Shown here one piece after another: positions 1-24,616 of a DNA stretch of 27,095 nucleotides. The DNA lies in the IMG/VR virus record IMGVR_UViG_3300009494_000019, positions 1-27,095 of that record, one strand, 5' to 3'. The notes below the pieces were generated by a model. That model was not told where the DNA came from and did not search any database. It saw only the letters and a program-made list of their open reading frames with translations. How positions within the stretch are numbered: the first letter of the stretch is position 1; each line of letters begins with the position of its first letter. Position numbers and translations under genes: made by a program. Source of the DNA: a virus.

Positions 1-53
1 AGAGCGCACGGTTCACATCCGTGAGGTCCAGAGTTCGAGTCTCTGCTCGCCCA
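1..53 (+). tRNA. tRNA-Val(CAC), 3' part only
   Basis: The window opens inside a tRNA. The anticodon stem is CACGG (7-11) paired with CCGTG (19-23). The 7-nt loop TTCACAT carries anticodon CAC at 14-16, which reads GUG valine codons. A variable loop (24-28) follows, then a T arm of CAGAG/CTCTG (29-33/41-45) around TTCGAGT, the acceptor strand CTCGCCC (46-52) and discriminator A53. CCA is not encoded. The 5' acceptor strand and most of the D arm lie before base 1. The adjacent integrase makes this the likely integration target. Confidence 0.9.
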
Positions 54-213: not shown

Positions 214-1206
214 ATGGTTCAGCGTAAAAAAATCAGCCTAAAACTCTCTCAGGCCATTGAGGGATTCTTCCTGGAGCAGCGCGCGCGCGGACTCAGCACT
301 TGCACACTCAGCGATTATCACAACGGATGCGGCAAACTTACCGCCTGGCTACCTGACGATCCCAACCTGAACGAGATTACCACCCAGGATATTCAGCATC
401 TCTTTGCCTATCTGGGTAACACGCCGCAAATATCGCGCTCCGCGATTCCCCGCCCGGCGAAACCGCTCTCCAACAAGAGCCTTCTCAACATTCATGCCGG
501 CCTTTCCGCTCTCTGGACCTGGGCTATCCGTGAGGGCGCTGCTGATGAGCACATCATCCGCGCCCTGCCGCGTCCTAAACCCGAGAAGCGCGCCATTGTC
601 CCCTTCACCAAACCCGATATCGTCGCGCTCCTCGCGGCCTGCAATGAGACGCGCTCCTACATCGCCAAGGGCATCCGCTGCGCCAACGCGCGCCCCATGG
701 CGCTGCGTGATCAGGCCATCATTCGCACCCTGCTCGATACTGGGATACGCGCCTCAGAGCTCTGTAATGTGACCATCGCAGATGCGGATCTAGAGAATCA
801 CCGCATCAAGGTTTTTGGGAAGGGCGCCAAAGAGCGAATATTGAGAACGGGCAATCGTACTACGCGCGCACTATGGCGATATCAAACCACACGCGCACCC
901 CATCTCAGCGGCGCCGCGCCGCTATTCGCCAACAATAACGGCTTCGAGGAGCCGCTCACCCGGCGCGCTCTCGGTTCAATGCTCTCTCGCTGCGGCGAGC
1001 GCGCCGGCGTCCGCGCTGTCTACCCACACCGCTTTCGCCACACCTTCGCGATCGTCTACCTGCGCTCTGGCGGGGATGCCTACAGCCTGCAGATTCTCCT
1101 CGGTCACACCACGCTCGACATGGTGCGACGCTACCTGGCGATTGCCCAGGCCGACGTCGAGAACGCCCACCGCAAGGCCTCGCCGGTGGACAATTGGCGG
1201 CTTTGA
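214..1206 (+). CDS. int: Tyrosine recombinase / phage integrase
   Basis: This 330-residue site-specific recombinase would integrate and excise the prophage by cutting and rejoining attachment sites through a 3'-phosphotyrosine intermediate. The N-terminal SAM-like, core-binding domain covers roughly residues 8-110 and the catalytic domain 125-330. All catalytic residues are visible: Arg179 (TGIRASEL), Lys203 (FGKGAKER), His272 and Arg275 (PHRFRH), His298 (LGHTT) and nucleophile Tyr307. The ATG at 214 is supported by GGAGGT at 205-210. It is convergent with the late operon and separated from it by a hairpin terminator. Its position beside tRNA-Val fits the usual tRNA-targeted integration. XerC/D-like chromosomal recombinases share the fold, but the tRNA and phage context favour an integrase. 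Confidence 0.93.
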   Translation: MVQRKKISLKLSQAIEGFFLEQRARGLSTCTLSDYHNGCGKLTAWLPDDPNLNEITTQDIQHLFAYLGNTPQISRSAIPRPAKPLSNKSLLNIHAGLSALWTWAIREGAADEHIIRALPRPKPEKRAIVPFTKPDIVALLAACNETRSYIAKGIRCANARPMALRDQAIIRTLLDTGIRASELCNVTIADADLENHRIKVFGKGAKERILRTGNRTTRALWRYQTTRAPHLSGAAPLFANNNGFEEPLTRRALGSMLSRCGERAGVRAVYPHRFRHTFAIVYLRSGGDAYSLQILLGHTTLDMVRRYLAIAQADVENAHRKASPVDNWRL

Positions 1207-4326: not shown

Positions 4327-4499
4327 TTCCTATTCCCCCACTCCCCTACTCCCACACTTCCATACTCCCTGCTTCTCTTCTCTGTGTTCTCCGTGCCTCT
4401 GTGGTGAAAAAGCAAAAACCCCCTTGCGTCCTTGCGTCTTTGCGTTGAAATTCCTTCTTTCTTTTCTCTGCGCCCTCTGCGTCTCTGCGTTGAAATTCT
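4327..4499. repeat. Repeat-filled intergenic gap
   Basis: This 173-bp gap between two tail genes consists of the pyrimidine-rich plus-strand unit (C-rich 7-8-mers, 4331-4370), a copy of the element ending CTCTGTGGTGAA (about 4378-4409), and two related units ending TGCGTTGAAATTC (about 4431-4452 and 4475-4498). No gene was seen. Related elements occur at 9820-9895, 24575-24606 and 27040-27065. Confidence 0.7.
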
Positions 4500-9214: not shown

Positions 9215-9799
9215 CTATGCTGCCGCTGCAGACTGTACTACCATCCAGCCCAGTTCGTCGCCCGCGGATTGATCGGCATCCACCAGCGCGTGAAACTCAC
9301 ATTCCACCGCTGGACGATCATCCTTGGCGAACGTGGGCTGTGGTTCCCCATCGAAAACCCCGCGCGGGATGACATACATCCCCGGCCAGATGCCATAAGG
9401 CGAGGTGGCCGCTCCCCGGAAGAGCAACGCGTACTCCGTAGGTACAAATCCGCGCTCCAGCGGCAGGGTTTTGGTATTCGGATCGCTCACCGCGTCCTCC
9501 ACCACGTCTCCCACCGCGTCCAGTATCCGCGCGTAGTGCTCCAGTGTCAGCGAAACTAACGTGAACGCCACGACCACGTCTTCTTCCGGGCGCACTGCTT
9601 TGCGCGGCCCCTGGTGCGCGTTGTCGCGGAAGTACGTCAGCGCCCCGGAGTGCTGCATACTCTGCTCGCCGTCCGTCTCCGCCAGCTCCACCCACGGCGA
9701 CGCGGGCGCCGCGTCAATGTCTGGTACGGTGCTGCCCACCGGCGCGACGTAGACCTGTAACGGTCCCGTCAATTGGTCAAATGGTGCTGAATGTGCCAT
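9215..9799 (-). CDS. Major tail tube protein
   Basis: A 194-residue protein that aligns without large gaps to the first ~190 residues of the next gene upstream (9938-11575), for example DQLTGPLQVY, AVGDVVEDAVSD and TKTLPLERGF. Size, beta-rich composition and position before the tail chaperones fit a siphophage tail-tube subunit that polymerises around the tape measure. It lies 8 bp upstream of chaperone G. The two tube genes arose by duplication, and one copy gained a C-terminal domain. I saw no recognised named family signature. Confidence 0.75.
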   Translation of the reverse strand: MAHSAPFDQLTGPLQVYVAPVGSTVPDIDAAPASPWVELAETDGEQSMQHSGALTYFRDNAHQGPRKAVRPEEDVVVAFTLVSLTLEHYARILDAVGDVVEDAVSDPNTKTLPLERGFVPTEYALLFRGAATSPYGIWPGMYVIPRGVFDGEPQPTFAKDDRPAVECEFHALVDADQSAGDELGWMVVQSAAAA

Positions 9800-9937
9800 G
9801 TCAAACCTCCTATTTCCCGTCTAAGAAAAACTCTGTGTCCTCTGCCATCGGTTATAAGACCTTATGGTCGCTGATACCTCTGTGGTGAATCTTTTATTCC
9901 TTATCCCCCTACTCCCCTACTCCCTTACCCCCCTCTT
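9800..9937. repeat. Repeat-filled gap between the two tail-tube genes
   Basis: This holds a CTCTGTGTCCTCTG...CCTCTGTGGTGAATC element (about 9831-9890) interrupted by about 30 bp (around 9845-9875) that are absent from the copy at 24575-24606, then the C-rich tract (9903-9935). No gene was seen. The stop of the upstream gene (9938-9940) is part of the repeat edge (TTGTTAGAAGAGG on the coding strand). Confidence 0.6.
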
Positions 9938-11575
9938 CTAACAACAATCAATGATTTTAACGGCCGTATAGCCCGCGCTGATAGCGATGTAGCGGTCATT
10001 CCACACGTCGAACCAGCCGGTATCTTCGCTTTTGGTAGCATTGTCCGGGATGAAATCCAGCGTTGTGATTTGTGTCGGATTTGTAGGGTCCGAGATGTCA
10101 ACGAACCGCATCTGGATCGTCAGGTCGTCGCCGCCTTCGCTCAGTTCGTGCAACGTCGCCAAAATCAAATACTTTCCCACGATCTGCATGAACTGCACTT
10201 CATACGAGCCGTCCGCAGAAACCACCAACGTTGATTGCAACACCGGAGTAAAGCGCGTGCTGATGTCATAGATTTTCACATCTCGCCCGTAAAAATCACT
10301 TAATACTAACAGATTCCGCGTTGCGCTGATAGCCCAGCCACTAAGGTGTGCTGAGCCTCGCAACAACACAAAACTCTCGTAGCGCTTGATCGGCGACGCT
10401 GGCGTCGCAATATCATAAATGCAAACATGCCACCAGTCATCAACGATATAAACGTGGTCATCTGTGTAGAGCAGCTCTTCGCAGTCTACATTACCGTCAA
10501 AAAATACCCCGGCTGGATTCGCCGGGTCAGAAATATCAAATATCGCCCACCCAAACCCCGATCCGCCGCAGATGGCATAGTTCCCGTCAGTGCTGATAAT
10601 AATGTGTTGTAAGAAGGGATCGTCACCATAACCGGCTATATAGCGGCATGATCCTACCAGAGCCATCGTGTTTTTGTTGACGACAAATAACCCGTTCCAT
10701 GAGGCGATATACACATAATCACCGCTGACCGCGCACTGCTCAGCGAACCCGATACTGGTATCTGTCATGGTAGCCGTTGCGCTCAATGTTCCCGTAAGTG
10801 CGACCCCATTACCATCCGCGACTAACACCTTGTGCAATCCTCCGGGCGCGACGTAGTCCTTGGCGATGCACACATACGCATACGGCAGATCAATTGCAAC
10901 GCCGCATAGCACCTCATCCGTCAGCACGGGAGCGTAGGTAGCAATCACACTCGGATCTGGTATGCCAGCGAGCAAGCAGGGATTCTCTTCTTCTTCCACT
11001 GTTGGCGGCTGCACCACGAGCCAGCCCAATTCGTCGCCCTCGTCCTGGCTGATGTCCTCCAGCGCGTGGAACTCGCACTCGAGCGCCGGCCGCCCGTCTG
11101 TGGCAAATGTAGGCTGCGGCTCGCCATCGAAAACACCGCGCGGGATGACGTACAGCGCCGGCCACGCGCCATAAGGCGAGGCCGCCGCCCCGCGAAACAA
11201 GAGCGCGTATTTCGACGGCGTGAATCCGCGCTCCAGCGGCAGGGTTTTGGTGTTCGGATCGCTCACGGCGTCCTCCACTACATCCCCCACCGCGTCTAAT
11301 ATCCGCGCGTAATGTTCTAACGTCAGCGAGACTAATGTGAACGTTGCGATGACTTCCTCATCTGGCCTGACGGATTTGCGCGGTCCCTGGTGCGCATTAT
11401 CATAGAAATAAGCCAGCGCTCCAGCGTGCTGGAGGCTCTGCTCGCCGTCCGTCTCCGCCAACTCCACCCAGGGAGACGTGGGCGCCGCGTCGATATCCGG
11501 TACGGTGCTGTCCACCGGCGCGATGTACACCTGGAGCGGGCCGGTCAATTGGTCAAACGGTTGGCTATGTGCCAT
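9938..11575 (-). CDS. Tail tube protein fused to a beta-propeller
   Basis: 545 residues. Residues 1-195 are a close paralogue of the tail-tube protein at 9215-9799. A short acidic hinge (EEEENP) leads to residues ~200-545, which carry LVIVD-type propeller blades: FDISDPANP, YDIATPASP, YDISTRFTP, VDISDPTNP. The propeller would project from the tube as a decoration. The C-terminal ACCESSORY domains of some siphophage tube proteins (usually Ig-like) are the closest known parallel. The ATG adjoins the stop of the preceding gene (TAAATG). Whether it mixes with the shorter subunit in one tail, or forms only part of it, cannot be told from sequence. Confidence 0.8.
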   Translation of the reverse strand: MAHSQPFDQLTGPLQVYIAPVDSTVPDIDAAPTSPWVELAETDGEQSLQHAGALAYFYDNAHQGPRKSVRPDEEVIATFTLVSLTLEHYARILDAVGDVVEDAVSDPNTKTLPLERGFTPSKYALLFRGAAASPYGAWPALYVIPRGVFDGEPQPTFATDGRPALECEFHALEDISQDEGDELGWLVVQPPTVEEEENPCLLAGIPDPSVIATYAPVLTDEVLCGVAIDLPYAYVCIAKDYVAPGGLHKVLVADGNGVALTGTLSATATMTDTSIGFAEQCAVSGDYVYIASWNGLFVVNKNTMALVGSCRYIAGYGDDPFLQHIIISTDGNYAICGGSGFGWAIFDISDPANPAGVFFDGNVDCEELLYTDDHVYIVDDWWHVCIYDIATPASPIKRYESFVLLRGSAHLSGWAISATRNLLVLSDFYGRDVKIYDISTRFTPVLQSTLVVSADGSYEVQFMQIVGKYLILATLHELSEGGDDLTIQMRFVDISDPTNPTQITTLDFIPDNATKSEDTGWFDVWNDRYIAISAGYTAVKIIDCC

Positions 11576-15997: not shown

Positions 15998-16534
15998 CTA
16001 AACACGATAAAACGCCTTGAATTGTAGCGCGTCGGCAATCGCGGCGGTCGGACTCCAGGGCATTACCCCCTCCAATCGCAAAAACGCCTTCGCCAACGCC
16101 AACGCGCGCGGCGCGCCCATCCCCGCCAACGCGAGCCGGAACAATCTCCCCAGGCGAGCAGCGCCCAACAACGTGCGTTTCCCGCCCCAGTTGCGGCCCT
16201 CTCCGCCGATCACGTATTTCGCGCCTGCGTCCAAGAGCGCGTCCAACATCGGACTATCCTCGTCTCCGAGATAACAATTCACCGCGAACACGACCGCGCC
16301 TCTCAGGCTGAGCCTGCGCACCTGCTCTTCGCGCAACGCTACGATCCCATTGTCGCCGTACCAGCACCGCGCGCCTGGCTGCCCATGCAAATCCAAATAG
16401 ATTAGATGGTATGGGCCATGCCAGCGTTGCAGAATCGTCGCGTCCGTTGTCGGCGGACAGGTGATCGGTAACACCCCCGCCGCTTTCCGCGTACTCTCGG
16501 CATAGTTCTGGCAACAATAAGCGAGTGTGCGCAT
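15998..16534 (-). CDS. Small caspase/CHAT-like (clan CD) protein
   Basis: A 178-residue stand-alone copy related to residues 1-172 of the PKD protein at 1289-2938. Shared stretches are YAES/YAEN near residue 11, the LHG/LHP histidine (His50), and the NCYLG/GACFG cysteine (Cys87), followed by LDALLDAGAKYVI and an NWGG loop. This matches the His-Cys dyad after beta strands of clan CD peptidases (caspase, gingipain, CHAT). No clear substrate or partner was seen. It starts 2 nt after the lipoprotein stop. Within the late operon it could be expressed in the same cell as the membrane-bound copy, making an activation cascade conceivable but unproven. Confidence 0.65.
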   Translation of the reverse strand: MRTLAYCCQNYAESTRKAAGVLPITCPPTTDATILQRWHGPYHLIYLDLHGQPGARCWYGDNGIVALREEQVRRLSLRGAVVFAVNCYLGDEDSPMLDALLDAGAKYVIGGEGRNWGGKRTLLGAARLGRLFRLALAGMGAPRALALAKAFLRLEGVMPWSPTAAIADALQFKAFYRV

Positions 16535-17181: not shown

Positions 17182-17272
17182 AGCCCAATCTCCTTTCTCC
17201 CTATTCCTTACTCCCTATTCCTTACTCCCTACTCCTTACTCCCCACTCCTTACTCCTTACTCCCTACTTCTC
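17182..17272. repeat. Pyrimidine-rich (CTCCCTATTCCTTA) tract between lipoprotein and CBM gene
   Basis: About seven units of 12-15 bp from 17200 to 17272, reading as GGAGTAAGG-type repeats on the coding strand. With the boundary element at 17273 they form a composite unit upstream of the lipoprotein. No gene was seen. Confidence 0.7.
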
Positions 17273-17292: not shown

Positions 17293-17820
17293 CTACGTTA
17301 CTATCGTCCACAGCGCTGGCACCACAGGCGGCTCCCAGCCGACTTGACTGGTGTGTGCCTGGATGCACTTATATTCCATATCACTATATGTCACCAGATC
17401 GCCGATGGCGTATGCCACGCCTGCCTGCCATTCTCCAGAGCCGTCTGGTATTACCAGCCATAACGCTGGTGTCACGTCCGGCGCCCAGTCCGTCTGCGTC
17501 GTGTGCGTCTGACGACATTCATACAACACACCGCTATATTTCCGTTGTACGCCGATTGCCACGTATTCGCCTGGTTCCCAATCCAGATTTTCTTCTAATG
17601 CCGGAGACCCTGTGTTGATTTTGAATTTCCGCTGCCCGAAGCCCGCCATGTGCGAGCACAGTGCTGCATAGTCATCATCACCCATTGCGGCTTCGTCAAT
17701 TTCCACATAGGCCAATCCCAATTTTTCGCCGAAGCGAGCCAAGTACTCCTCAATTGTTGCTGCCGGCTTATCCGATGCAAAAACGATCTTGCCATTTGAT
17801 ATCTGATATACTATTCGCAT
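17293..17820 (-). CDS. Double CBM5/12-domain protein coupled to the RT gene
   Basis: 175 residues. Residues 1-~78 are unknown. Residues ~81-124 (W-PGEYVAIGVQRKYSGVLYECRQTH) and ~131-174 (WQAGVAYAIGDLVTYSDMEYKCIQAHTS) are two copies of the short carbohydrate-binding module 5/12 found in chitinases and phage tails. The ATG lies inside the last codons of the reverse transcriptase gene (10-nt overlap) and is preceded by GGAGG, so it is translationally coupled to the RT. A glycan-binding virion or surface protein is likely. The coupling ties it to the DGR and may suggest a role beside receptor variation. Confidence 0.75.
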   Translation of the reverse strand: MRIVYQISNGKIVFASDKPAATIEEYLARFGEKLGLAYVEIDEAAMGDDDYAALCSHMAGFGQRKFKINTGSPALEENLDWEPGEYVAIGVQRKYSGVLYECRQTHTTQTDWAPDVTPALWLVIPDGSGEWQAGVAYAIGDLVTYSDMEYKCIQAHTSQVGWEPPVVPALWTIVT

Positions 17821-18872
17821 GATTGCCTCCGTACATATTTGCCCAATGCGGGCTCTACCTCACGCCAGATTTGCAAGCGCAGGTGATAGCTGTCAGCATG
17901 TGATAGATGCGCGAACCAGCTCCGCAAACTGTCAACAACAGCGACGGGGTCCATCTCTCCTTGCTCTAAGGCGGTAATCTGTTTATGCAATCTGCGCCGG
18001 CCGGCGACTATGTTTTTTCGCAAGATACGGCGATGATCGTGCCATACGCGATAGCCTAAGAATGGTATGCCTTCCCGCGCGGCGTAAATACGTGTCTTCG
18101 GATTAAATACGAGACCCATTTCCCCCGTCATTTTCTTGATCTGCGCTAACCATTCCCATAATTGATTCTTATTGTCCGAAAGCATGATCCAGTCATCCAT
18201 ATAGCGGATGTAATGCTTGCATTTTAGATCGTGTTTTATGAACTGATCTAGGCGGTTTCCCACGATATTAGCAAACCACTGACTTGTCAGATTGCCAATC
18301 GGGATCCCGCGGGGCTCAAATCCAGGATCGTCAACAAAGTCGCTCTTGTAGCTGCTCAGCGCGCGCTTTAGCAATGTCAAAACTGCCTGATCTGCAATTC
18401 GCCATTCTAATTCGCGCATCACAAGCCCATGTGGTATAGAGTCAAAATACTTCTTAAAATCTCCCTTGAGAACGTAGCGGCTATTCTTTTTTCTTAAAAA
18501 TGTTGTCAGTCTATCAACCGCAGCGTGAGACCCTTTTCCCTTTCTGCATGCGTAACTATCATATATGAATGTCTCTTCAAATAGCGGAGCTATTACCTCA
18601 CACATAGCCTGATGAACGACACGGTCCCGGAAGGGGGCAATGTGAATTATCCTGCGCTTGGGCTCCCTGACGATTTTGCTTCTATAGGGGCCGGGGAGCC
18701 ATGTGAGTTCCTGAATCTCGCGTTGAAGATCCATTATATTCATACCGAGGTGGGACGTGAATTGTAGCACGTCGGAGCGGTAGCGTTTTCCGCGTCTTGC
18801 CCGTTCCCAGGCTCGATACAGTGTATCGAAGCAATAAATGTTCTCGTGTAAATTTTTGTAGCGCCTCGGCAT
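17811..18872 (-). CDS. DGR reverse transcriptase
   Basis: 353 residues, group II intron-like RT core of the DGR clade. Visible motifs are a conserved stretch RRIIHIAPFRDRVVHQ (residues ~73-88), the catalytic GDF (Asp138), the DGR-specific IGNLTSQ (192-198), the YMDD catalytic box (Tyr224 to Asp227), and FLGYRVW later. The basic C-terminal region would bind template RNA with Avd. It copies the TR transcript with A-specific errors, and the cDNA replaces VR (mutagenic homing). The ATG at 18872 lies 146 nt beyond the end of TR. The N-terminus resembles other DGR RTs and the length is normal. Confidence 0.95.
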   Translation of the reverse strand: MPRRYKNLHENIYCFDTLYRAWERARRGKRYRSDVLQFTSHLGMNIMDLQREIQELTWLPGPYRSKIVREPKRRIIHIAPFRDRVVHQAMCEVIAPLFEETFIYDSYACRKGKGSHAAVDRLTTFLRKKNSRYVLKGDFKKYFDSIPHGLVMRELEWRIADQAVLTLLKRALSSYKSDFVDDPGFEPRGIPIGNLTSQWFANIVGNRLDQFIKHDLKCKHYIRYMDDWIMLSDNKNQLWEWLAQIKKMTGEMGLVFNPKTRIYAAREGIPFLGYRVWHDHRRILRKNIVAGRRRLHKQITALEQGEMDPVAVVDSLRSWFAHLSHADSYHLRLQIWREVEPALGKYVRRQSCE

Positions 18873-19141
18873 GATTGTCTCCGGTACCGGCTTCAGGGTT
18901 CGTTTCCTACTAGCTGTCGCCGGTGATTTCGTATTCGGCCTTTTGGCCAGGGTCCAGGTGTGGTGCGCGCGGGCGCGGGACGGCGACCTTGATCAACCGT
19001 CGGCTGGCGACGCGCAATTGGCGAGCCGAAACCCGATGTTCGTGTTCGCGTTGCCCGGCGAGTTGTTCGCGTTCGCGGCACGGACGCCGGCGTTCGCGCC
19101 GTTGTTCCAATTGCCGCCGACATACAACAGCGCCGGTTTTT
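18873..19141 (-). ncRNA. DGR template RNA region (TR plus spacer)
   Basis: In characterised DGRs the TR is transcribed within an RNA that extends past TR to the RT start. Here that corresponds to TR (19019-19137) plus a 146-bp spacer (18873-19018). In the spacer I saw no confident ORF, though one frame is open from within TR to 18910. The spacer length is close to that of the Bordetella phage system (about 140 nt). RNA extent and promoter are inferred. Confidence 0.55.
19019..19137 (-). repeat. DGR template repeat (TR)
   Basis: 119 bp, aligning without gaps to VR (19550-19668), with 10 substitutions, all where TR has A on the minus strand (plus-strand T). On the coding strand TR is rich in AAC codons that become His, Phe, Ser or Arg codons in VR. 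Its 25 adenines are the substrate for mutagenesis. It lies between avd (stop 5 nt away) and the RT gene, and should not be translated. Confidence 0.96.
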
Positions 19142-19510
19142 TTATCCACCTTTCCCCCGCTGCAATGCGCTCGTCCAGCCACCGAGCTGCCGCCCTATGG
19201 ATCCCATGAGTCGGGACACATGCGCAAACTGCCCTCGGCTGGATACGCGCAATGAAACCGCTACACGCATTAGTAGGCGCAGACTATCGAGCTCCGCGCT
19301 GGCGCGCTCTAGATATTGATTCTTCTGTCCGGGCCGCGCGCCGTATGCGGTAGTCGTATACCTAAGCAAATTCATCAAGCATTCCATCGTTTGGTGTCCC
19401 AGTGTTGGCCGTAGCCATTTCGGCCATTTGCCAACATGCGGCACCAGCCAGATAGCGAGATCCTCAATTGCTTGATATAATGTTAGTTCCTGAAATGTTT
19501 TATATGCCAT
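19142..19510 (-). CDS. avd: DGR accessory variability protein (Avd)
   Basis: A 122-residue four-helix bundle protein of the bAvd/Avd type: helical and basic, with the typical opening FQELTLYQAIEDLAIWL and the ending GRQLGGW near the C-terminus. Avd pentamers bind the RT and template RNA and are needed for mutagenic homing. The ATG at 19510 gives this length. An open frame upstream of it reads through the VR end and a short repeat of TCAAAGAC units, so it is probably not coding. No strong ribosome binding site lies directly upstream. Order target-avd-TR-RT equals the Bordetella BPP-1 DGR. Confidence 0.88.
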   Translation of the reverse strand: MAYKTFQELTLYQAIEDLAIWLVPHVGKWPKWLRPTLGHQTMECLMNLLRYTTTAYGARPGQKNQYLERASAELDSLRLLMRVAVSLRVSSRGQFAHVSRLMGSIGRQLGGWTSALQRGKGG

Positions 19511-19544
19511 ATCAAAGACCAAAGGACAAAGATCAAAGACTAAA

Positions 19545-21062
19545 TCACCTGGCGAGCCGAAACCCGATGTTCGTGCTCGCGTGGCCCGGCGAGCTGCGCG
19601 CGTGCGCGGCACGGACGCCGGCGCTCGCGCCGTTGAACCAATGGCCGCCGACATACAACAGCGCCGGTAGGCCCGCCGTCCACCCGCCCGTGTCTGAGTT
19701 GTACGATTGTCCCTCGAAATTGTATGCTCTATCTCCTTCGTGTCCCCAGTCCACAGACGTGCCGGGCGACGACGTTTTAAGTCCCCCGAAAAATTGCGCA
19801 ACCCATTCCCAGATATTCCCGACTGGATCGGCAAGGCCCGCAGGACTATACCATGATCTGCCCGTCATTGTGGATGTCCACGCGGTTGTGCGCGGGCCAG
19901 TGCCAGTCAATATTCGGCCGGCGTTGTGTGTGGGATCAGATGTCCCGTGTTGGGCTCCGGTTGTGTTAAATCCACCCGCATTCGCTCCCAGAGAACCATC
20001 TATTAGGTCGTCGGTGTAAACCGTGGTGGTGTTGTCACTGATTGTGGCGACGTACTTATAGGTTGATCCGCCCGCTGCGGTCCGGTAGATTTTCCGCGCG
20101 GTGCAACCCGCGCCGCCGATCGGAATCGCCGAAAGATCAATCTGCTGACTCGACGGTTGCACCAGTGCTGACGCCGTGCCTGCCTGGGTTTCGCCATTGG
20201 TGTTTACGAATATGATTTTGTAGTAATAGTCTCCGGTCAGATTACCCGCTGCCCCCGCTGCTACTGTCGCTGCCCCCGCTGCGGCCAAGTACGTGTCATC
20301 TGATGCGCTGCCATAATACGTATTCCCGTTCATGCGCGCGGGTGTATCGCTCCCCGGATTCCACTGCACCGCGCCTAGCCATTCCTCCCAGGTCGGCAGC
20401 CTACAGCCGGCATTACGACACGCCGCCATAGTATTCCAGCCCGCGATACTCACCCACGGAACGATGCTATAACGGCTGGTGGGGTAGTCGCTGCTTCCCG
20501 CAGCGCTGGCCGTGGCGTCCTCGCGGCTGGCCGCATAGATCCCCATCGCCAGCCCGCCGACGCCGATCATCCCCGGCAACGGGATGCCCGCCGGTAGCAT
20601 TTTATGCGCGCGATACGGGTACTGATAATTCCACGCTCGGTGAATCAGCGGATAGTCGCAGATCGAATACTCGAAGATCGCGCCATCCGCGCCGCCGCCC
20701 TCGAAATCCTTGCCGTTATGGAACCAGCCCAACAACAGAGAATCATCCTCATCATAGCCACTCGGCGCTTGCTTCGTCGCCGGAAACGTCTGTGGGATCT
20801 CACTCAATACAATGCCATCCGCTGTAGCAAAAATATAGTAATCCTTGCCCACAGCCCGCGCACCGGTATCAAGAGCAGAGAAAGTCACGTTGCTGGCGTT
20901 ACTGAGTACCAGACGCGTGCCGTCCCAGAAGTTCGCAATCCCGCGCCCCACCTGGAGCGTGTCATCATCCACGAACGAGATCGGGAATCCATACCGTTGC
21001 CCCGGGGCCACAGTAGCCGCCAGCGCCCTAATCCGCGCATCTGGATCAAATCGAATCGGCAT
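19545..21062 (-). CDS. DGR target protein: C-type-lectin/FGE-fold variable protein with Ig-like insert
   Basis: 505 residues. Residues ~1-150 are a beta-rich N-terminus that may attach the protein to the virion. From ~160 to ~255 the first half of a formylglycine-generating-enzyme-like fold runs (CRLPTWEEW, 220-229). Residues ~256-365 are an inserted Ig/FN3-like domain (GDYYYKIIFVNTNGETQ...). The second half (366-505) carries GLADPVGNIWEWV and ends with the variable region and GFRLAR. It looks like a receptor-binding protein whose side chains are diversified by the DGR: residues 474, 476, 480, 487, 489, 490, 494 and 496. GGGGGTGAGC precedes the ATG. It lies directly upstream of avd in the operon order. 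Confidence 0.9.
   Translation of the reverse strand: MPIRFDPDARIRALAATVAPGQRYGFPISFVDDDTLQVGRGIANFWDGTRLVLSNASNVTFSALDTGARAVGKDYYIFATADGIVLSEIPQTFPATKQAPSGYDEDDSLLLGWFHNGKDFEGGGADGAIFEYSICDYPLIHRAWNYQYPYRAHKMLPAGIPLPGMIGVGGLAMGIYAASREDATASAAGSSDYPTSRYSIVPWVSIAGWNTMAACRNAGCRLPTWEEWLGAVQWNPGSDTPARMNGNTYYGSASDDTYLAAAGAATVAAGAAGNLTGDYYYKIIFVNTNGETQAGTASALVQPSSQQIDLSAIPIGGAGCTARKIYRTAAGGSTYKYVATISDNTTTVYTDDLIDGSLGANAGGFNTTGAQHGTSDPTHNAGRILTGTGPRTTAWTSTMTGRSWYSPAGLADPVGNIWEWVAQFFGGLKTSSPGTSVDWGHEGDRAYNFEGQSYNSDTGGWTAGLPALLYVGGHWFNGASAGVRAAHARSSPGHASTNIGFRLAR
19550..19668 (-). repeat. DGR variable repeat (VR)
   Basis: The 3' end of the target gene, from residue 465 to the last codon. Differences from TR, given on the coding strand: four A to G, four A to C, two A to T, and no others. 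The 26 bp at the 3' end are identical to TR, as expected for the initiation-of-mutagenic-homing segment. I saw no obvious hairpin directly after the stop. Confidence 0.96.
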
Positions 21063-24520: not shown

Positions 24521-24616
24521 AATTCCGCTCTTTTTACTCCCTACTTCCTACTTCCTACTCCCACACTTCCTTTTCTTCTCTGTGTTCTCTGCGCCTCTGT
24601 GGTGAATCCCCTTCTC
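24521..24616. repeat. Repeat-filled gap between terminase and portal
   Basis: C-rich plus-strand units (about 24535-24570) followed by a CTCTGTGTTCTCTGCGCCTCTGTGGTGAATC element (about 24575-24607). No gene was seen. The adjacent boundary element is at 24617. Confidence 0.65.

Follow-up and report, generated by a model that had tools for sequence, protein, structure and literature searches.

Is the cluster of minus-strand genes shown above a diversity-generating retroelement (DGR), and, if so, what marks the site at which it acts? The sequence analysed (hereafter the window) is the entire IMG/VR record IMGVR_UViG_3300009494_000019, 27,095 bp in length and classed as of a linear/fragmentary type. 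A first-pass annotation of its letters had described a complete DGR with a reverse transcriptase (RT), an Avd accessory protein, a template repeat (TR) and a variable repeat (VR). With a probability of about 0.96 this cluster is a DGR of the type present in Bordetella phage BPP-1, carried by a tailed phage, and its target is the C-terminal, putatively receptor-binding part of an Mtd-like tail protein, here called the variable protein (VP; Table 1). The element itself is ordinary in kind; its added interest lies in the target site.

Table 1. Positions of the DGR components and of the integration genes in the window.
Feature	Coordinates	Strand	Notes
DGR target (variable protein, VP)	19545-21062	-	505 aa; Mtd-like second domain; C-terminal C-type-lectin/FGE-sulfatase domain
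Variable repeat (VR)	19550-19668	-	119 bp; 3' end of variable protein gene; 10 substitutions relative to TR
CTTTG x4 array, period 7	19513-19538	-	in the 34-nt gap between VP stop and Avd start, the usual place of the hairpin
Avd accessory protein	19142-19510	-	122 aa
Template repeat (TR)	19019-19137	-	119 bp; 25 adenines; 11 AAY codons
TR-RT spacer	18873-19018	-	146 nt; expected Sp part of DGR RNA
DGR reverse transcriptase (RT)	17811-18872	-	353 aa; motif 4 IPIGNLTSQ; catalytic RYMDD
tRNA gene, 3' part	1-53	+	left end, adjoining integrase
Tyrosine integrase	214-1206		

The TR and VR align without gaps and all 10 mismatches lie at TR adenines, as read on the coding (minus) strand. Realignment thus reproduces the repeat coordinates, length and adenine count given by the first-pass annotation; its estimate of chance, near 2 in 10 million, is the binomial form (25/119)^10, and the exact hypergeometric probability is 3.1e-8. 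Four of the substitutions are A to C, four are A to G and two are A to T. They fall in eight codons, each of which is AAY (Asn) in the TR, and all are non-synonymous (N to H, F, S, H, R, S, H, and S); within repeat positions 26-93, 10 of the 18 AAY adenines are altered. The final 26 bp of the repeat, which also contain adenines, are the same in TR and VR, and beyond the repeat the sequences diverge at once (ATTG vs GGTG). The VR runs up to the stop codon of the VP open reading frame (505 aa). The TR sequence has only two occurrences in the record, and no further VR was found in it, nor in a multi-VR check of the survey loci described below.

The RT matches the RVT_1 (4.2e-23) and phrog_1423 (2.8e-125) profiles and has the DGR motif (I/V/L)GxxxSQ, as defined in PMC3521204, in the form IGNLTSQ, together with YxDD in the form YMDD. 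Aligned with BPP-1 Brt and five further phage DGR RTs it is 32-38% identical, with the catalytic and SQ columns invariant, and its top match among solved structures is 8ub7_A (a 'Reverse transcriptase' chain, 328 aa; E 5e-53), covering nearly the full chain. Avd matches bAvd (7.6e-15) and phrog_3206 (1.6e-19); its match to NCBIfam DivGenRetAVD (1.2e-17, 64.1 bits) is below the curated cut-off of 80. Pfam matches of VP are to mtd_2nd (1.2e-9, residues 48-117) and FGE-sulfatase (1.5e-8, C-terminus), with a further match to a phrog tail protein (7.8e-8), and its N-terminal half matches BPP-1 Mtd residues 102-259 by profile comparison (E 1.1e-4). The C-type-lectin/FGE-sulfatase domain holds an insertion of ~100 aa (residues ~258-362, bounds by inspection), predicted by a low-confidence model to be rich in strands. 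That model, built from a two-sequence alignment, has a mean pLDDT of 32.7, and the C-type-lectin fold of VP is predicted from its sequence matches. Single-protein pattern searches yielded no relatives of VP, and one weak viral and one weak genome match for the RT. The minus-strand gene at 17293-17820 overlaps the end of the RT gene and encodes a 175-aa product with two CBM_5_12 carbohydrate-binding modules (4.4e-27).

The biochemistry, RNA priming and receptor-binding role are taken from BPP-1. RT and Avd would copy the TR-spacer RNA to cDNA, misincorporating opposite adenines, and the mutagenised cDNA would then take the place of the VR; the AAY codons of the TR would allow nine residues to vary with no stop codons arising. 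The spacer, by analogy with BPP-1 (PMC12875486), probably forms the Sp part of the DGR RNA.

BPP-1 (mtd-avd-TR-brt), fetched as a control, shares with the window the order VP-avd-TR-RT, an Avd, an Mtd-like target with the VR at its extreme 3' end, and a similar spacing of TR and RT (144 nt in BPP-1, 146 nt in the window). The two RTs are 34% identical (tblastn; 33% in the alignment) and both contain SQ and YMDD, and the TR regions are 75% identical at the DNA level over 89 bp. Both also have an adenine-biased footprint: in the BPP-1 record 18 of 22 TR/VR mismatches are at adenines, the remaining four lying toward the 3' end of its repeat. In the window, no mismatches of the initiation of mutagenic homing (IMH/IMH*) kind are seen within the 119 bp. 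The window VP also differs from the BPP-1 target in its 505-aa length with the inserted stretch, and behind the VR it has the CTTTG array in place of a GC hairpin, whereas BPP-1 has no repeat array there. Five other viruses, Chromohalobacter phage YPCBV-1, Bacillus phage BalMu-1, Aeromonas phage phiARM81mr, Faecalibacterium phage Lagaffe and ANMV-1 virus, similarly have VP with VR followed by TR and then RT. Avd is annotated in all but ANMV-1 (in phiARM81mr as '23S rRNA-intervening sequence protein'), and all but ANMV-1 have a GC hairpin behind the VR (that of Lagaffe seen by inspection). Mismatches are at TR adenines without exception in YPCBV-1, phiARM81mr and Lagaffe, at 10 of 11 positions in BalMu-1, and at 17/17 or 18/19 in ANMV-1 depending on the aligned span. 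YPCBV-1 and ANMV-1 have no array of the type described below.

An RT alignment of seven phages was used to assemble 80 loci from viral contigs, and TR/VR pairs were sought with one script over 88 loci including the window (survey loci; L numbers), adenine bias being called at P<1e-4. An adenine-biased pair is present in 79 loci, the window and 78 of the 87 others, and the TR is downstream of the VR in every one. The TR/VR signature is therefore real and expected for the family, and footprints made up wholly of adenines are usual among DGRs, not exceptional (see also PMC8144416). In a tree of the RTs, that of the window is on a long, deep branch that it shares with L011 alone (support 100/98).

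L011 (IMGVR_UViG_3300014613_000108), the nearest relative found, has the same gene order, an RT 64-65% identical and a VP 62% identical to those of the window, and a highly conserved TR-RT spacer. Its Avd start is more distant from the VR, and its TR differs from that of the window at 26 of 119 aligned positions. At 21 of these neither TR has an A, and at every one of the 21 the VR of each element agrees with its own TR, a match not expected from independent drift of the VRs. TR-to-VR copying thus continued after the lineages split, in at least one of them and most simply in both, as a historical trace read from the aligned repeats. The earlier claim that the element has acted at least once since TR and VR last matched is strengthened accordingly.

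Efficient homing of BPP-1 depends on a GC-rich stem, capped by a GRNA loop, immediately past the VR (PMC3240598). This structure, which boosts BPP-1 efficiency and lies outside the definition of a DGR, was sought as a GC-rich hairpin with a 4-nt GRNA loop 4-34 bp behind the VR, and local folds were computed with DNA parameters over the 66 nt behind the VR in 72 distinct loci. In 56 of the 72 the fold is at or below -7 kcal/mol. Several results weigh against the assignment of the window element to a BPP-1-type DGR. The window has no BPP-1-type hairpin and no perfect stem of at least 5 bp behind the VR, and its best local DNA fold there is -0.9 kcal/mol (z +1.0 vs shuffles), compared with -12.2 in BPP-1. 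A search of IMG/VR for VR variants, using a TR-derived pattern with N at the adenine-derived positions, gave no further copy. The L011 RT (L011:3501-4547) has RYMDN at the catalytic RYMDD site, such that the L011 copy may be inactive; the change may reflect a recent loss of activity or an error of sequencing. Of the first-pass statement that all parts are present in BPP-1 order, the genes, motifs and order stand, and the post-VR hairpin, which that account overlooked, was not found.

These results could mean that the DGR was formerly active and is now silent through loss of the hairpin, since tropism switching of BPP-1 falls by a factor of more than 1000 once the stem is disrupted (PMC3240598) and L011, with its YMDN motif, likewise has no convincing stem behind the VR (-4.7 kcal/mol, z -0.5). 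Silencing is nevertheless unlikely. RT, Avd and VP are all open and full-length, and the VR has no non-adenine difference from the TR, indicating little ordinary mutation since the last copying. Moreover, L011 lacks the hairpin and yet shows copying after the split, the hairpin-less loci L013, L015, L019, L021, L045 and L075 retain adenine-biased VRs, and BPP-1 itself keeps residual homing without the stem (PMC12875486). Far more improbable is that TR and VR are simply two copies of a duplicated gene fragment, with differences that arose by chance, beside an RT of another type (a retron, group II intron or DRT). Nothing specific speaks for a duplication; the nearest NCBIfam RT models are of group II/DRT types but all are far under their cut-offs, and the explanation is refuted by the adenine-only mismatches (P = 3e-8), the DGR-specific SQ motif, the Avd gene and gene order, the RT alignment and grouping with DGR RTs, and the signature shared with the survey loci. 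With the BPP-1-type DGR retained as the reading of the locus, the absence of the canonical GC hairpin indicates that target recognition in the window probably proceeds independently of it.

The gap between VP and Avd is composed almost wholly of the CTTTG array, and when the gap sequence was shuffled 200,000 times no 5-mer ever occurred four times at a fixed period of 6-9. Related arrays were grouped in this analysis as a YTG-array class, with at least four YTG at 6-9-nt steps directly behind the VR. Such arrays are present in 37 of the 72 distinct loci (shuffles: mean 0.25, maximum 2) and in none behind the TR; carriers in addition to the window include L012, L027, L059, L121, L270, L301 and many more. 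The commonest unit is ATCTG, and steps are of 7 in 78 of 124 cases and of 8 in 41. A strict form of the motif applied to 563 kb of survey loci finds 19 arrays, every one of them on the coding strand; 17 are at a detected VR end and the other two are at expected VR ends, in L025 (VR partly detected) and L054 (VR not detected). Array loci and hairpin loci are dispersed over many lineages of the RT tree. Inspection leaves the window, L011, L013, L015, L019, L021, L045 and L075 with an array and no hairpin, and the IMG/VR scan described next adds L121, L127, L132, L142, L198 and L199; L010 and L023 were called hairpin-less by the script, yet stems are visible on inspection.

The whole of IMG/VR was scanned by DNA pattern alone for four array units at set steps; some matches are near-copies of one another, and the counts are therefore not of independent events. 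ATCTG x4 with 7-7-8 or 7-8-8 steps gives 54 matches, 12 of which belong to three loci that carry 15-nt tandem repeats. Among the remaining 42, 30 have a DGR RT gene on the same strand no more than 3 kb downstream; a further four have Avd, and two are truncated by the contig end behind VR-like sequence. AACTG x4 at the same steps gives at least 15 matches, with three in repeat loci among the matches listed; of the other 12 listed, seven have an RT, and four lie behind the C-terminal end of a DGR-type variable protein in loci where no avd or RT was detected (TR was not looked for). With strict 7-7-7 steps, no ATCTG match of 131 is near an RT and neither is any of 226 AACTG matches among those listed; these 7-7-7 arrays are plain microsatellites. 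Judged by their sequence distribution, YTG arrays of period 7/8 are a feature specific to the target sites of phage DGRs, so much so that the DNA sequence by itself suffices to locate such targets. In L128, L158 and L166 an ATCTG x4 array, with a GC-rich stem after it, is located behind an ATPase-like protein gene with no DGR genes nearby.

Whether the window array belongs with these is less clear. It fits the criterion of at least four YTG, but its steps are 7-7-7 and the specific form elsewhere is 7-7-8 or 7-8-8, so membership of the class is held with only moderate confidence and is probable, not certain. The array could instead be one of the heptamer-type microsatellites of this phage, unrelated to the DGR: a second array of fixed period 7 (ACTCC) is at 17224, more arrays of period 7, 8 or 14 occur in the window, and the 7-7-7 arrays of IMG/VR are not near DGRs. 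The odds are against such a coincidence, but not heavily, as the array is positioned identically to the YTG arrays of other DGRs, is unlike the other arrays of the window in sequence, and has a counterpart of similar CTTTG type at the equivalent place in L011, whose RT is merely 65% identical; 7-7-7 spacing with mixed units is also found in other DGRs (L009, L032, L034, L041, L077). On a DGR-related reading, the CTTTG array would be the best candidate to replace the hairpin in target recognition. More broadly, and tentatively, at a little short of even odds, period-7/8 (N)NATCTG-like arrays directly behind the VR may act in cis at the target sites of phage DGRs, as an element not described before that is as widespread as the hairpin and separable from it; the window phage and about seven other lineages would use the array without a hairpin, which would then not be universal in target recognition.

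Other roles for the arrays were considered. Base-pairing with the DGR RNA was rejected, as the minus strand of the 88 loci contains no complementary arrays and unit type does not covary with the TR flanks. Regulation of avd translation is less likely because L270, L287, L301 and L218 have an array and hairpin after a variable protein in loci where neither avd nor RT was detected. Avd is a pentamer, and the four or five units of the arrays recall the binding of repeats by a ring-shaped oligomer, an analogy that may bear on their recognition.

More than 30,000 DGRs have been catalogued (PMC8144416), among which that of the window is one more deep-branching phage example. The target signals described so far, IMH and the hairpin, have been studied in one phage. 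In the passages found in the open-access text of papers on target sites (PMC3240598, PMC12875486, PMC4372165, PMC5006420, PMC3521204), IMH and the hairpin are described, the spacer between VR and hairpin is taken as flexible, and a repeat array is unmentioned. An array specific to target sites would be a directly testable second signal for how the cDNA finds the VR, and elements with an array but no hairpin, such as the window DGR, offer natural test cases.

The record is probably a fragment of a temperate tailed phage integrated at a tRNA gene, as suggested by its gene content. Profile searches identify terminase, portal, prohead protease and major capsid protein genes in a minus-strand structural module, and the partial tRNA gene beside the integrase is a probable attachment site; a second copy of the tRNA end was not found within the 27,095-bp record. 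Two minus-strand genes (1289-2938 and 15998-16534) encode related proteins (33% identity, E 1e-17) with a His/Cys spacing reminiscent of caspase-like CHAT peptidases, in a region that has no Pfam match and a poor structure model; the 1289-2938 protein additionally has PKD domains and a Thr-Pro-rich tail. The neighbouring minus-strand genes 9215-9799 and 9938-11575 share an N-terminal domain of 189 aa that is 84% identical and, judged by position, tail-tube-like, and the latter has an extra LVIVD-repeat domain. Pyrimidine-rich short tandem arrays with periods of 7, 8, 14 or 15 are located, mostly in intergenic regions, at 17190-17268, 2295-2393, 4329-4369, 9906-9934 and 24535-24571.

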